Assembly: GCF_013106755.1 (NCBI RefSeq)
Contig: NZ_WHPF01000015.1
Coordinates: 1-64,000, forward strand
DNA: 64,000 bases
Reading direction: 5' to 3'
Origin: Limnovirga soli
Lineage (GTDB): Bacteria > Bacteroidota > Bacteroidia > Chitinophagales > Chitinophagaceae
Shown: positions 36,011 through 43,446 of the stretch, piece by piece
How positions within the stretch are numbered: position 1 is the first letter of the stretch
Layout: the number at the start of each line of letters is the position of its first letter
The notes under the pieces: generated by a model
The model's input: the letters and a program-made list of their open reading frames with translations, nothing else
Database searches by the model: none
What the model was told of the DNA's origin: nothing
Translations under genes and position numbers: made by a program

Positions 36011-37129
36011 TTACATGCGTTTTTTATAATTAAGCACGGCCCATCCATTTAAAAAAATGGCAAACCCTGCAACGGTTAGCAGTTGCCGGCTAATATCGGC
36101 AAGGGTGCTACCCTTAATTACCACCATGCGTATTACCGAAATAAAATAAGCTACGGGATTAAATTTGGTAATGGTTTTTGCCCAATCGGGCATACTATCG
36201 ATAGAGGTATATAAACCACCCAGTAATACAAAAATCATCATGAGAAAAAAGGCAATTAACATACTTTGCTGTTGTGTGTTGGCATAGGTAGATACCAGCA
36301 AACCCAGACCCAGCACAGCCAGCAAATACACCATGGCAAATACATAAATGGTAACCATATTACCATAGGGTGTTATGCCATAAACTATTCTGGCTACCAG
36401 CATGCCCAGGGTGAGTACTATCAAACCCAGTATCCAAAAAGGAATAAGTTTACCCAATATAAAATGGTATTTTTTAATGGGCGTTACATTTACTTGTTCA
36501 ATGGTGCCAATCTCTTTTTCTTTTACAATGTTTAGCGATGTCATAAATGCACCTACCATGGTGAGCAATACAGCCAAAATGCCGGGTACCATAAATAACT
36601 GGTAACTCATGTGCGGGTTATACCAGGAGGCGGTAGTAATTTCTATGCGCGGCTGATCGTTTAAATGGGGCATTTGCAACCATTGCAGTCTTACATCCTG
36701 GTTATAATTGCGGATAATATTTTGCAGGTATGCTGCACCAAGATTGGCTTTGGTGCCATTAATGGCATTTACGGCCATAAATACCGGGGCTTCACTTTCT
36801 TTAACAAGGGTACGTTCAAACTGTGCAGGTATTTCCAGTATTATATCAGCTTCATCTTTTTCTACCAGATGCATGGCATCGGTATAATTGCTGTTAACCC
36901 CTACCAATTGAAAATAGCCGGATGCAGTGATTTTATTAATCATTTGCCGGGTATAACTGCTATGATCATGGTCTACAATAGCCAGGTGAATATTCTTTAC
37001 CTCAAAATTAGCAGCCAGTGGTAATAGTATTAATTGTATTACAGGCATTACCAGAATCATCCTTATGATAGAAGGATCGCGGAATATTTGCCTGAATTCT
37101 TTTTGCAATAAAAATTTTAGTGTGCGCAT
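36011..37129 (-). CDS. ABC-2 type permease (YbhR-like), distal subunit
   Basis: The 372-residue permease has one N-terminal helix, a large extracytoplasmic domain (about 40-175) and five C-terminal helices with the ABC-2 motif NIVKEKEIGTIEQVNVTP. It is the last gene of the exporter operon, 16 bp after its sister permease (37146-38255). The two probably form a heterodimer, like YbhS/YbhR of E. coli. Confidence 0.92.
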   Translation of the reverse strand: MRTLKFLLQKEFRQIFRDPSIIRMILVMPVIQLILLPLAANFEVKNIHLAIVDHDHSSYTRQMINKITASGYFQLVGVNSNYTDAMHLVEKDEADIILEIPAQFERTLVKESEAPVFMAVNAINGTKANLGAAYLQNIIRNYNQDVRLQWLQMPHLNDQPRIEITTASWYNPHMSYQLFMVPGILAVLLTMVGAFMTSLNIVKEKEIGTIEQVNVTPIKKYHFILGKLIPFWILGLIVLTLGMLVARIVYGITPYGNMVTIYVFAMVYLLAVLGLGLLVSTYANTQQQSMLIAFFLMMIFVLLGGLYTSIDSMPDWAKTITKFNPVAYFISVIRMVVIKGSTLADISRQLLTVAGFAIFLNGWAVLNYKKRM

Positions 37130-37145
37130 GGTGCTATATTTTAAT

Positions 37146-38255
37146 TTATTGCGATAACCTGATATTGTATTTTTTAATACTAATGGTTAACAATACCACT
37201 GTCATACTGGTTAAAATTAATAGCTCGTGCCATATGGCTTCAACGCCCAAACCTTTAATCATGACCGATTTTACAATATAATAAAACCATTTGGCCGGTA
37301 TGGCATTAGAAATAACCTGCATAGGCAATGGCATATTTTCTATAGGAAACATAAAGCCACTGAATATAATGGTGGGCATAAATAAACCCATTAAAGAAAT
37401 AAGCATGGCCGTTTGCTGCGTATTGGTAAAAGACGATATTAATAAACCCAGCGATAAAGAAGTGATGATAAATAAAATACTGGCTGCAAATAATAACACA
37501 ATGCTGCCGGCAATAGGCACATCCAGCAGGTACACACTTAACAATAATATGCTAATGATATTGATAATGCTTAACAGTAAATAAGGCACTGCTTTGGCAA
37601 TAATTACCATAATGGGTTTTAAAGGCGATACCAATAAAACTTCCATAGTGCCCATTTCTTTTTCTTTTACAATGGCAATAGATGTCATCATGGTGCATAC
37701 CAGCATTAATATTAATGCCATTACGCCGGGCACAAAATTATACGCACCTTTAAGCTGTGGATTATACAGCATACGTACCTGTGTGGTTATGGTATAGGGC
37801 AGTTTATTTTGCCCCATAATTTCGTCCTGATAATCGCCAATAATGGCACTGGCATAATTAGACAGTGTGGTGGCGGTATTTGGGTCAGATGCATCGGTGA
37901 TGAGTTGTATTTGCGCCGTATTGGTATGCAGCAGCGATTCCCTGAAATGTTCGGGAAAAACAATGGCCATTTTTATATCGCCCTTTCTAAATGCGGCATC
38001 AATTTCGGTATTGCTTTGCAGGTTGGTTACCAGATCAAAATAACGACTGGCATTAATGCGGTTGGCCAGTGTAATACTGGCTTCATCCCTGCTCATATCC
38101 AATATACCAATCTGCGAATTTTTTACTTCGTTGGTAAGGGCAAAACCAAATAAAACAATTTGTACAATGGGCATACCAAACAGTATAAACAGGGTGCGTT
38201 TATCCCTCCATATATGAAAGCATTCCTTTTTTACAAAACTTAAAAATTGTTTCAT
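37146..38255 (-). CDS. ABC-2 type permease (YbhS-like), proximal subunit
   Basis: The start is taken at ATG 38255 (MKQFLSFVKKECFHIWRDKR), the usual beginning of this family; an in-frame ATG lies at 38270. The 369-residue protein repeats the layout of its neighbour, with the signature SIAIVKEKEMGTMEVLLVSP and a terminal set of five helices. It lies 273 bp after the second ATPase gene, with a repeat doublet and a tandem repeat in between, so the two permeases may also be transcribed separately. Confidence 0.92.
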   Translation of the reverse strand: MKQFLSFVKKECFHIWRDKRTLFILFGMPIVQIVLFGFALTNEVKNSQIGILDMSRDEASITLANRINASRYFDLVTNLQSNTEIDAAFRKGDIKMAIVFPEHFRESLLHTNTAQIQLITDASDPNTATTLSNYASAIIGDYQDEIMGQNKLPYTITTQVRMLYNPQLKGAYNFVPGVMALILMLVCTMMTSIAIVKEKEMGTMEVLLVSPLKPIMVIIAKAVPYLLLSIINIISILLLSVYLLDVPIAGSIVLLFAASILFIITSLSLGLLISSFTNTQQTAMLISLMGLFMPTIIFSGFMFPIENMPLPMQVISNAIPAKWFYYIVKSVMIKGLGVEAIWHELLILTSMTVVLLTISIKKYNIRLSQ

Positions 38256-38334
38256 CAGCAGTATACCCAATGGGTGGTTTTGGTACTATAATATTTCATT
38301 ATTAGCCGAACATATTAACCAGCTGCAGCTTTAC

Positions 38335-38542: not shown

Positions 38543-39289
38543 TTAATCTGCCTGCCTTACTGCTTTACGGGCCAGCTGCAAAAACACTTCGTCCATGGAA
38601 TTTGCATTGAACTGTTTTTTTAAATTTATAGGTGTATCCAATGCTTCAATTTTACCATCTACCATTATAGAAACGCGGTTACAATATTCGGCCTCATCCA
38701 TATAGTGTGTGGTAACAAAAACGGTGGTACCATTTTGGGCTGCGGCATAAATCATTTCCCAAAATTCCCGCCGGGTAACCGGGTCTACGCCACCTGTTGG
38801 TTCATCTAAAAATACAATGGCAGGTTCGTGAAAAATAGCTACCGAAAAAGCCAGTTTTTGTTTCCAGCCAAGTGGTAATGATTTTACCAGTTTGTTTTGA
38901 GATGCTTCCATATGCAGTTGCTGCAACACATCCTGCGTTTTTTGTTTAATGCGTTCATCGCTTAAGCCATAAATACCGCCGTAAAACCGCATATTTTCTT
39001 TTACGGTAAGATCTTCGTACAAAGAAAATTTCTGGCTCATATAGCCAATGCTTTGCTTTATTTTATCGGGCGAAGTATACACATCATATCCCGCAACAGT
39101 AGCTTCGCCGGAAGTGGGCAGGCTTAGTCCGCATAACATACGCATGGCTGTAGTTTTGCCGGCACCATTGGCACCCAGAAAGCCAAAAATTTCGCCCTTG
39201 CTTACTTCAAAGCTGATGGCATTGGTGGCAATAAAATCACCAAATTTTTTGGTAAGCTTATTGGCGGTTATCACTTTCCCGTTTGTCAT
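38543..39289 (-). CDS. ABC exporter ATPase, second half of a split YbhF-like pair
   Basis: The 248-residue ATPase has Walker A GANGAGKTT (39-47), Q-loop in YMSQKFSLYEDLTV, the signature region SLPLGWKQKLAFSVA (SLPLG where LSGG is usual), Walker B IVFLDEPTGG and the switch His in VTTHYMDEAEYC. Together with the ATPase at 39550-40473 it corresponds to the tandem ATPase of YbhF, here split into two genes with an 80-codon ORF between. The altered signature motif matches the degenerate half of such pairs. Confidence 0.92.
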   Translation of the reverse strand: MTNGKVITANKLTKKFGDFIATNAISFEVSKGEIFGFLGANGAGKTTAMRMLCGLSLPTSGEATVAGYDVYTSPDKIKQSIGYMSQKFSLYEDLTVKENMRFYGGIYGLSDERIKQKTQDVLQQLHMEASQNKLVKSLPLGWKQKLAFSVAIFHEPAIVFLDEPTGGVDPVTRREFWEMIYAAAQNGTTVFVTTHYMDEAEYCNRVSIMVDGKIEALDTPINLKKQFNANSMDEVFLQLARKAVRQAD

Positions 39290-39294
39290 TTTTT

Positions 39295-39537
39295 TTATGC
39301 TTTTGCCATGCGGCTTTCTATGGTTTTTACCAAATCGTTTACGGTTTGGTTGCTATGCCACTCCTGATCGTTTACACTAATTAAAAACGCTCTTTCTACA
39401 TGATTGGCCAACAGGTCCAGCTCCCAATCGGCAATATGCAGGTCATTATATAAAGACGACGATTTTTTAATACTTTTTGGTGGAATGTTCAATGAAAGGT
39501 TCATTACCTGCCTGAATTGTTTGTAGGTGAGTCTCAT
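39295..39537 (-). CDS. Acyl-carrier-protein-like small protein without the carrier serine
   Basis: The 80-residue acidic helical protein aligns by eye to acyl carrier proteins: SSLYNDLHIADWELDLLANH and VERAFLISVND, then NQTVNDLVKTI, matching the DLgaDSLDtvEL...EeeF...TV..li pattern. The phosphopantetheine-bearing DSL motif is replaced by ADWELD, so no Ser is available. It sits between the two ATPase genes of the exporter, 5 bp from one and 12 bp from the other, so it is certainly co-transcribed. A structural role in the exporter or an unrelated fold are both possible. Confidence 0.6.
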   Translation of the reverse strand: MRLTYKQFRQVMNLSLNIPPKSIKKSSSLYNDLHIADWELDLLANHVERAFLISVNDQEWHSNQTVNDLVKTIESRMAKA

Positions 39538-39549
39538 ATTTATATTGAT

Positions 39550-40473
39550 TTATTCATTTCGCATTAATGCTATAAAACAGTCTTCAATATTGGCATTGGC
39601 CTTTTGTATGTTAACTGTTGTACAACCTTTTTGGTTAAGATAGTTGCCTAACTCCTCTATGCTTATATTATCCTTCATTACCACGTGGTGATACTCTCCA
39701 AACGGATAACTGTTGGCCGCCAAACCACTTTCCCTTAACACCTGCAATAGGCCAAACATATTATCTGCTTTTACGGCCAGTAATGTGTTGTTAAACTGCG
39801 CTGTAATGACAGTGGGCTTATCTATTGAAAGTATGGCACCATTTTGCAGCAGCGCCACCCTATCGCACAAGCTGGCTTCATCCATATAAGGGGTGCTAAC
39901 CAATATGGTAATGCCCTGCTTTTTTAACTGTTGCAGCATTTCCCAAAACTCCTTTCGGGAAACTGCATCCACACCGGTAGTTGGCTCATCTAAAAACAGT
40001 ACCGATGGGCGGTGAATTAACGCGCAACACAATGCCAGCTTTTGTTTCATACCGCCAGATAGTTTGCCGGCCCGCCTTGTTTTAAAAGGCGCTATCTGTA
40101 CATATATATCTTTAATCAGGTCATAATTTTCGCGGATGCTGGTATTAAAAATGGTAGCAAAAAAATCCAGGTTTTCTTCTACTGATAAATCCTGGTATAA
40201 AGAAAATTTACCGGGCATATAACCTACTCTTTTTCTGATTTCCTTATAGTCCTTTACTACATCAAATCCATCCACAAATGCAGTGCCGCTATCGGCCAGT
40301 AACAGCGTGGTTAATATTCTGAATAAAGTAGATTTGCCGGCACCATCCGGACCAATTACGCCAAAAAGCTCTCCTGCATTAACTTTGAAGGAGATATCAT
40401 TTAACGCCTTTACCACAGATTTCTTTTCGGCCGGGTATGTTTTTATTAAATTATTAACTATAACGGCTTCCAT
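39550..40473 (-). CDS. ABC exporter ATPase, first half of a split YbhF-like pair
   Basis: The 307-residue ATPase has Walker A GPDGAGKST (41-49), Q-loop in YMPGKFSLYQDLSV, signature KLSGGMKQK, Walker B VLFLDEPTTG and the switch region STPYMDEASLC, where the usual His is a Pro-Tyr context. A C-terminal domain of about 90 residues (DUF4162-like) follows. It lies 110 bp after the HlyD gene, with repeat copy 17 between. Confidence 0.92.
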   Translation of the reverse strand: MEAVIVNNLIKTYPAEKKSVVKALNDISFKVNAGELFGVIGPDGAGKSTLFRILTTLLLADSGTAFVDGFDVVKDYKEIRKRVGYMPGKFSLYQDLSVEENLDFFATIFNTSIRENYDLIKDIYVQIAPFKTRRAGKLSGGMKQKLALCCALIHRPSVLFLDEPTTGVDAVSRKEFWEMLQQLKKQGITILVSTPYMDEASLCDRVALLQNGAILSIDKPTVITAQFNNTLLAVKADNMFGLLQVLRESGLAANSYPFGEYHHVVMKDNISIEELGNYLNQKGCTTVNIQKANANIEDCFIALMRNE

Positions 40474-40583: not shown

Positions 40584-41528
40584 CTATTTGTGCTGTGTAA
40601 AAAGCACCTCGCCGTACATGCCTATTTTTAAAGTGCCATCGTTGGGTACATTTATTTTTATGGCATATACCAAATTGGCCCTTTCGTCTTTGGTTTGAAT
40701 GGTTTTAGGGGTAAACTCTGCCTTACTGGAAATCCAGCTTATTGTACCCTTATAGGTTTTAAAAGCTTTGGCGCCATCATCTACCTGAACGGTTACTGCT
40801 TGCTGTAGTTTAAGCTGGCTTAACTGATCGCCGGTGATATAGGCCCTTAGTTTAATTTCGCTGAGGTTAGCAATTTTATACAACGCCTTGCCAGGTGCAG
40901 TTACCTCGCCGGCCTCCGCATATTTGGTAAGCACTGTACCACTAATGGGGTTAATCACGGTGGATCTTTCCAGTTGATCTGCAATTTGAGCGGCTCTTTT
41001 TTCCAGTGCCGGCTGCTCGCTTAATATACTTCTATTTTGCGTGCTGGTATTGTTTAGCTGTACTTTTATCTGCTGCTCAGTTACCGCAATTTGCCTGTTT
41101 AGCATATCTATCTGGTTGCTGATATCGTCCAGTTGTTTGGTGGTGGCGGCATCGGCTTTTATCAGGTTTTCAGTACGGGCTTTTTCTTTTTGCAAATTGG
41201 CCATTTGTACTTTTTGTACTGCTATCTGGTCTTGCAGCAATTGCACCTGCGGACTGGCGTCGCTGGTTTTATTATGCAGCGCATCAATGCTGGCTTCTAC
41301 CTGTTGTTTTTGCAGGCTAAGGTTGGCAGCATCTATTACAGCTGCAAGGCGGCCTTTGGACATGGTATCGCCTTCTTTCACATCCATTTGTATAATTCGC
41401 CCGGCAATTTCTGAAGATACAATCACTTCATCTGCTTCAAATGTGCCAGATGCATCTGCCTTGCCTGTATTGCTATTGCAGGCGGTAAAAGCAATTGCTG
41501 TTATAAATAGATAGCACCATTTTTTCAT
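40584..41528 (-). CDS. HlyD/YbhG-type membrane fusion lipoprotein
   Basis: The 314-residue protein has a lipoprotein signal (MKKWCYLFITAIAFTACNSN, Cys17), a split biotinyl-lipoyl domain (VSSEIAGRIIQMDVKEGDTM and later INPISGTVLTKYAEAGEV), a long coiled coil (about 75-180) and a beta-barrel domain with LRAYITGDQLSQLKL. It bridges the inner-membrane ABC pump and TolC. It is 11 bp downstream of the TolC gene. Confidence 0.94.
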   Translation of the reverse strand: MKKWCYLFITAIAFTACNSNTGKADASGTFEADEVIVSSEIAGRIIQMDVKEGDTMSKGRLAAVIDAANLSLQKQQVEASIDALHNKTSDASPQVQLLQDQIAVQKVQMANLQKEKARTENLIKADAATTKQLDDISNQIDMLNRQIAVTEQQIKVQLNNTSTQNRSILSEQPALEKRAAQIADQLERSTVINPISGTVLTKYAEAGEVTAPGKALYKIANLSEIKLRAYITGDQLSQLKLQQAVTVQVDDGAKAFKTYKGTISWISSKAEFTPKTIQTKDERANLVYAIKINVPNDGTLKIGMYGEVLFTQHK

Positions 41529-41539
41529 TGTATAGCGGT

Positions 41540-42805
41540 TTATAGTTTTCCTAAAATATTTAAATAGCCCAATTTTGCTTGCGTTAATTGTAATTGATGA
41601 GTTACCAGGTTTTGCCTTGCCTGGTCGGCAGCATTTACTTCGCGTAAATAATCGTTGGCGGTAATTACACCGTTTTCCAGCTGACCATTACTGGCCTGCA
41701 TAACAGCTTCCCTAACGGTAATTATTTTATTGTCTACCGTTATCAGCTGTTCCAGTTTTTCTACTTCATTACCCTGTTGTGCCAGTTGTGTATCGGTGTT
41801 TAGGGTAAACAGGTCTTTTTGTACAGCAACCGTCTGGTGGCTTACGGCGATAATTTGGCGGTCTCGTTTTGTAGTATATAAACTACCCAGCGACCAGCTA
41901 AGCTTAATACCGCCGATATAGTAAAAATTAAAATCATTCATCAATTGGTTTAATCCGGGGCGGCCATAGCCACCTTGTACAAATGCGCTGGTTTTGGGCT
42001 TATTTCGGGCACTAATGAGTTTATTTTGTACTGTAAGCAGGCTATCCTGTAAGGCATATAACTGTAGTTCGGGACGTTCTACACTATCTGTATATGCTGT
42101 ACCCAGTGTGGGTAGTATTAAATGAATATCACCCCAAAAATTTTTATTGGTAAAATATTGCAATACATCCAACAGGGCTTTGCGGTTGGCATCCAGTTCT
42201 ATCTGCCGGGCATCGTTTTTTAATAACTCTGCTTCCAGTACCAGTTTATTTGTTTTAAAGGCAGTGCCATTAGCTACCTGTGCAGTTACTTTATTCAGTC
42301 CCAATTGCACATCGTTGCGTTGTAGCAGGGTTTGTTTTTTTTGTTCTTCCAGCAGCAATACGCCTAAGAAAAGCTGGTTAATACGGTCTTTTAATTTATA
42401 AAGTTCCACTTCAGTTTTTTGCTGTTCGACCAGACTGTTCACCTGTTGAATATCTTTCTGCGTTTTGGTAACACCACCATCGTATAAAAGCTGGTTAATA
42501 TCTGCCATTAGTTTGTATTGGTCTCGGCTTAATGGGTCGATACTAAAGCCGGGGAGCGAAATGGGAATTTTGGTTACTTCCGATTGGTAGGTAGCCTGAC
42601 CACTAACGGTAACCTGTGGTAAAAAAGCGGTACTTATATTTTCAATGGTAAGAAAGGCCGATTTATTAATCAGGTCTTTTTGTTGTAGTAAGGGATAATT
42701 GGCACGGGCAAAATCATAAGCCTGTTGCAGGGTTAATTCCTTAAGTGGTTGTGTAAAAGCCTTGCTGCCTGTAAAAAGTAAAATCAGAGCAATAAGCTTA
42801 ACCAT
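41540..42805 (-). CDS. TolC-family outer membrane channel of the exporter
   Basis: The start is taken at ATG 42805 (MVKLIALILLFTGSKAFTQ, signal peptide); the upstream in-frame ATG at 42835 would read through the operator at 42811-42826. The 421-residue protein has the TolC repeat layout (LTLQQAYDFARANYPLLQQ, and the second half near LQLTQAKLGYLNI). It is the first structural gene after the TetR gene. Confidence 0.92.
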   Translation of the reverse strand: MVKLIALILLFTGSKAFTQPLKELTLQQAYDFARANYPLLQQKDLINKSAFLTIENISTAFLPQVTVSGQATYQSEVTKIPISLPGFSIDPLSRDQYKLMADINQLLYDGGVTKTQKDIQQVNSLVEQQKTEVELYKLKDRINQLFLGVLLLEEQKKQTLLQRNDVQLGLNKVTAQVANGTAFKTNKLVLEAELLKNDARQIELDANRKALLDVLQYFTNKNFWGDIHLILPTLGTAYTDSVERPELQLYALQDSLLTVQNKLISARNKPKTSAFVQGGYGRPGLNQLMNDFNFYYIGGIKLSWSLGSLYTTKRDRQIIAVSHQTVAVQKDLFTLNTDTQLAQQGNEVEKLEQLITVDNKIITVREAVMQASNGQLENGVITANDYLREVNAADQARQNLVTHQLQLTQAKLGYLNILGKL

Positions 42806-42810
42806 TTTAT

Positions 42811-42826
42811 TTAACCGTTTAGTTAA
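42811..42826. promoter_or_regulatory. Probable TetR operator 2 (TTAACCGTTTAGTTAA)
   Basis: A 16-bp near-palindrome between the TetR stop and the TolC ATG, ending 5 bases before that ATG. It differs from the site at 43464-43479 at only two positions, and the flanking T is shared. Confidence 0.65.
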
Positions 42827-42843
42827 TTCAGCCATAAAAAAAT

Positions 42844-43446
42844 TTATTTTTTTATTGAATCAATAATAAAGTTGGCAATTTCTGTTTTCCGTTGCTCCAT
42901 TAAATAACGAAACTGCAGGTCATCAATTTTCATTACTTCCTGTATCATGGGTTTACCAATAAAAGGAAATACACACATAGACATCATATTCATAATCAGG
43001 TGTGCCGGGTTAACGGCTTTGATAATACCCTGCTGGTATTCCTCGTCAATTTGCCGGGCCAGTTTACTAAAATCCGGCGGGTTATTACCAAACATTTTTG
43101 CGTGAAAAGCATGGGGCTGTTTATGCATCTCATTTAGCACAAACATAGGCAGGTAGGGGTTTTCAATCACTACTTCCAGGTATTGTCTGGTAAAATTCCG
43201 GATCTTATCAAATAGCGGTATCTCCTCGTTTACAATGGCCACAATTCGTGGGAACAGTTTTGAAGCGGCCTCTTTAAAAATAACTTCAAACAACTTTTCC
43301 TTACAGCGAAAATAATAATGTACCAGGGCTTTATTAATGCCTGCTTCATTGGCAATATCCTGCATGCGGGCACCAGAAAGGCCTTTTTCCATAAACACTT
43401 TCTTGGCTGCTGCTAAAATTCTTTGTTCTGCTGTTAAATCTTTCAA
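42844..43446 (-). CDS. TetR/AcrR-family repressor of the exporter operon
   Basis: The 200-residue protein has an N-terminal TetR helix-turn-helix (EQRILAAAKKVFMEKGLSGA, MQDIANEAGINKALVHYYF) and a ligand-binding C-terminal domain typical of the CecR/YbiH and related group. It is the first gene of the operon, 38 bp before TolC. Two near-identical palindromes lie directly upstream of its own ATG and of TolC, which supports autoregulation and control of the exporter. Its inducer is unknown. Confidence 0.92.
   Translation of the reverse strand: MKDLTAEQRILAAAKKVFMEKGLSGARMQDIANEAGINKALVHYYFRCKEKLFEVIFKEAASKLFPRIVAIVNEEIPLFDKIRNFTRQYLEVVIENPYLPMFVLNEMHKQPHAFHAKMFGNNPPDFSKLARQIDEEYQQGIIKAVNPAHLIMNMMSMCVFPFIGKPMIQEVMKIDDLQFRYLMEQRKTEIANFIIDSIKK

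Follow-up and report, generated by a model that had tools for sequence, protein, structure and literature searches.

Between the two ATPase genes of an ABC exporter operon in Limnovirga soli lies a short gene whose product resembles an acyl carrier protein (ACP), with aspartate in place of the carrier serine. This locus raises the question of whether such a protein belongs to the pump, and what it could do there if not carry an acyl chain.

The ORF and its exporter operon

We analysed a window of 64,000 nucleotides (the whole stretch of DNA examined) from this 5.48-Mb genome of the family Chitinophagaceae. The entire exporter operon is encoded on the minus strand, in the order TetR, TolC, HlyD, ATPase 1, the ORF, ATPase 2, permease A and permease B. 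It opens with a TetR-family regulator (42844–43446; PF00440), followed by a TolC-type outer-membrane efflux protein (41540–42835; PF02321) and a HlyD-type periplasmic adaptor (40584–41528) whose best NCBIfam match is PRK03598. The first nucleotide-binding subunit, the YbhF/RbbA-like ABC ATPase 1 (39550–40473; 307 aa), is separated by 12 bases after its stop codon from the 80-aa ORF (39295–39537, from the ATG at 39537 to the last base of the stop codon at 39295), which in turn lies 5 bases from the second, ABC ATPase 2 (38543–39289; 248 aa). The coordinates and length of the ORF and both gaps are as given in the first-pass annotation. Two YbhS/R-like ABC-2 permeases, A (37146–38270; PF12698, 4.5e-50) and B (36011–37129; PF12698, 2.3e-50), complete the operon. 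Both ATPases match RbbA/DrrA-type models; taken together with the PRK03598 match of the adaptor and the two ABC-2 permeases, this identifies an exporter of the YbhGFSR type whose ATPases are encoded by separate genes; the regulator (TetR), the adaptor (HlyD), both nucleotide-binding units and both ABC-2 permeases of that type are all present. A REP-like repeat is also found in the region: GTGCGACGCAAGG, with at most one mismatch, occurs at 27 sites in the 64-kb window against 0.01 expected (e.g. 38333, 38488, 40537 and 43568). Its inspected copies (30–46 kb) are mostly intergenic and often form inverted pairs, and it is present too in the genome of a sister species, G070.

To establish what the ORF encodes, we compared it with ACPs by sequence, profile and predicted structure. 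Single-sequence matches are weak and nearly all to ACP; NCBIfam ACP models match at 1e-6, scoring 28.3 bits against a curated cut-off of 71, and the Pfam PP-binding score is 13.1 against a cut-off of 20.8. The profile of a 22-member family that includes the window protein matches solved ACPs at 5e-11, and an alignment of Chitinophagaceae and order-level ACPs with 98.7% probability and an E-value of 4.5e-16 (hhalign). When the window protein is left out, an HMM of the remaining 21 members recovers its ORF at E = 1e-19, the next best of the 623 window ORFs having E = 1.9. AlphaFold2, run on the 80-aa protein alone as the first-pass annotation had proposed, returned an ACP-like four-helix fold rather than an unrelated one (pLDDT 87.2, pTM 0.71), with TM scores of 0.8–0.9 to ACP structures; the best structural matches include MmpL5-bound AcpM and the AcpP of MukBEF. 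The helix and length pattern first noticed in the sequence is therefore borne out: the 80-aa protein is a true ACP homologue, and the resemblance is beyond chance. Eight of the 22 family members also match PF07377 (DUF1493) weakly (best E-value 6e-4), the window protein giving no match; a literature search for serine-less ACP-like proteins and DUF1493 returned nothing relevant.

Loss of the carrier serine across a family

At the aligned carrier site, where ACPs have D-S-L-D, the window protein has A-D-W-E, with Asp37 at the serine position followed by Trp38-Glu39, in agreement with the first-pass reading of the site as ADWELD. Over the 22 aligned members the serine column holds Asp 18 times, Glu twice, Asn twice and Ser never, so that an acidic residue occupies the position of the modified serine in 20, and the next two columns hold Trp and Glu in 21 members each. 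Among the homologues found, none combines the same position with an intact DSL, and a loss confined to the window protein was rejected; judged from the alignment, serine loss is common to the whole family. In ACPs the phosphopantetheine arm requires the carrier serine. Since the serine is absent, no such arm is possible, and protein binding remains. The non-carrier role that the first-pass annotation put forward is supported by this family-wide loss and is the likely function. The strongly acidic surface of ACPs is missing as well: the pI is 8.1 as compared with 4.1 for ACPs, which indicates a remodelled surface, and the median net charge is about +1 in the family and about −11 in ACPs. Genomes that carry a serine-less member also keep an ordinary ACP with its DSL. 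A separate ACP-like protein with Ala for the carrier serine (LDAID) is encoded in another family of the order (L081; G404:C24:17221–17421) and lies outside the clade described here.

In a phylogenetic tree, the serine-less proteins form one clade apart from true ACPs (support 95/87), in which several branches are long and the inner placements unsure. The window protein, itself on a long branch with 20–31% identity to its relatives, has no supported sister. Selection could be assessed in genus g87, where four of five close pairs gave a dN/dS of approximately 0.02–0.09, dS being saturated in the fifth; no close homologue of the window gene was found. The g87 pairs are thus under strong purifying selection: despite lacking the carrier serine, the proteins are in use. 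Of the 195 genomes sampled in the bacterial family, 8 contain a member, as do 14 of 101 genomes of one genus; a phylum-wide scan of 395 genomes under strict criteria turned up none outside the family. One extra match in the phylum scan, and the matches in the order's other families, are ordinary ACPs, L081 excepted. A scan of named genomes gave no matches with the window protein as query, and matches in two Chitinophagaceae MAGs with a relative as query. Cargo of a mobile element was rejected, as no homologue was present in plasmid or phage records. The best explanation is a small, mobile, fast-diverging Chitinophagaceae family with D/E/N-W-E in place of D-S-L.

Placement in efflux operons

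We next asked whether the ORF is a regular part of this kind of exporter. Of the 195 genomes, 84 encode ATPase 1, and 85 other ATPase 1–ATPase 2 operons, including those of both sampled sister species from the same genus as the window genome, could be compared. The gap between the two ATPase genes is usually below 10 bases; a few long gaps contain repeats, and one (in G026) is partly N-masked. None of the 85 has such an ORF between the ATPases, which leaves the window's as the only one in 86 and means that the pump does not need it. A conserved operon component was rejected on these grounds. Nor does the same count support the first-pass proposal of a protein that couples the two ATPases as a general feature of YbhGFSR-type pumps; the homologues are encoded elsewhere, some of them beside RND pumps without ABC ATPases.

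In the sister species G070, a TetR-TolC-HlyD-RND operon is followed by an epimerase gene, a family member and an acetyltransferase-like gene, the last of these without a Pfam match. The window genome has kept the neighbours at this locus, its acetyltransferase-like protein being 84% identical to that of G070; the family gene is absent, and the epimerase gene adjoins the acetyltransferase-like gene. A paralogue left at the old locus was therefore rejected. Absence at the RND locus together with presence in the ABC operon is compatible with a move, and separate acquisition is a possible alternative because the window and G070 proteins are only about 31% identical. In the window genome's TetR-TolC-HlyD-RND operon, a DUF2147 gene sits between the HlyD and RND genes (L178:5173–5658, contig C67), where G070 has none.

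Two further family genes are found in efflux contexts, one placed 10 bases after TetR-TolC-HlyD-RND (G023) and the other following TolC-RND-HlyD-TauE-DUF1634 in a single run (G376). Including the window and G070, about 4 of some 13 distinct contexts involve efflux. With about 7 full RND genes and some 14 TolC genes in the window genome, a few percent of all positions are expected to be close to operons of this kind; the binomial chance of the observed contexts is about 0.003 at a 5% background and about 0.03 at 10%, for contexts judged by eye and counted after the data were seen. The recurrence in efflux operons is suggestive of a link to pumps, and suggestive only. Most family members have no adjacent pump, and their other neighbours, again judged by eye, vary (metallo-hydrolase, DUF1573, cation diffusion facilitator, histidine kinase, peptidase). 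Four members, L073/L074 (G376, G332) and L150/L151 (G977, G947), adjoin TauE/SafE-DUF1634 or a gene resembling a His-rich cation diffusion facilitator; here too the neighbours are transporters.

Possible roles and comparison with known systems

Among the explanations considered, we rank first, tentatively, the one in which an ACP-fold protein without carrier function was taken up into efflux operons and would serve there in docking or as an accessory factor. Having lost phosphopantetheinylation, an ACP-derived protein would act through contacts with other proteins, if it acts at all. In the window lineage, a copy would have inserted between the ATPase genes of the TetR-TolC-HlyD-ABC operon, probably once the gene had been lost from the locus downstream of the RND efflux operon or had moved away from it. 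The protein would then most likely dock on the pump's cytoplasmic face or its ATPases and act as an accessory or stabilising factor, for which holo-AcpM on MmpL5 and AcpP, activating MukB in apo or holo form, serve as models. We infer co-expression with the pump, binding and an effect on transport. Coupling of the two ATPases is one possible version of this accessory role, and nothing found singles it out. Several observations count against docking: the family is near neutral or basic, whereas AcpM binds MmpL5 through acidic residues (PMC11633376); the phosphopantetheine arm that helps to bridge protomers in the MmpS5L5-AcpM structure (PMC12501195) is absent in the window protein; and the 85 operons without the ORF and the majority of members without an adjacent pump point the same way. 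That the serine-less, lineage-restricted family is a dedicated, operon-encoded cytoplasmic accessory subunit of RND and ABC-type efflux pumps is unlikely.

Close behind the docking factor, and nearly as plausible, comes a protein with some other cytoplasmic job that tolerates many locations, landed in the operon by chance and borrows its promoter. The very varied family contexts and the 85 operons without the ORF fit it, as does the DUF2147 gene likewise inserted in the genome's own RND operon, whereas tripartite efflux operons, with pumps of two energy types among them, have received family genes independently three or four times, more than expected from a 5–10% background. We consider it improbable that the protein is a regulatory decoy, an ACP mimic without an acyl chain that binds ACP partners (fatty-acid and lipid enzymes, SpoT, IscS) and ties pump expression to the lipid state: the shift in median charge means that the acidic surface recognised by those partners is gone, even though the ACP fold is retained and an acidic residue stands at the modified-serine position in most members. 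Least probable is a decaying ACP copy or a functionless chance ORF. The long branch, the low identity to relatives and the lack of a close homologue for a selection test would suit it; the intact frame, the retained W-E motif, the family HMM match, the confidently predicted fold and the purifying selection in relatives all speak against it.

The family bears on a wider question. ACPs have recently been found on the MmpL5 transporter and on the MukB ATPase machine, where their fold might do something other than carry acyl chains. A serine-less family whose fold is under selection (in the one genus measured) and which occurs in several pump operons separates carrier from non-carrier roles, and allows the question to be tested in bacteria other than pathogens. 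The window family shares length, four-helix fold and detectable homology with type II ACPs (TIGR00517, PF00550); it differs in its missing carrier serine, D/N/E-W-E motif, near-neutral to basic character, own clade and scores below the curated cut-offs. With PF07377 (DUF1493), the likeness is limited to the weak matches of other members. E. coli CecR-YbhGFSR has the same regulator, adaptor, paired nucleotide-binding units and paired permeases as the window operon, yet its two nucleotide-binding domains are joined in the single chain of YbhF (PMC7190983), whereas the window operon has separate ATPase genes, its own TolC gene and the ACP-like ORF between the ATPases. In mycobacteria, AcpM binds the cytoplasmic side of the RND pump MmpL5 (PMC11633376, PMC12501195), likewise an ACP-fold protein associated with an efflux transporter; there the phosphopantetheine of AcpM, a functional carrier, touches the pump (PMC12501195), while the window protein can have no arm and its pump binding is hypothetical. 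E. coli AcpP stimulates the MukB ATPase equally in its apo and holo forms, an ACP fold acting on an ATPase with no need of the prosthetic group (PMC8602292), although MukB, to which AcpP binds at the neck, belongs to the SMC proteins and not to the exporter ATPases.
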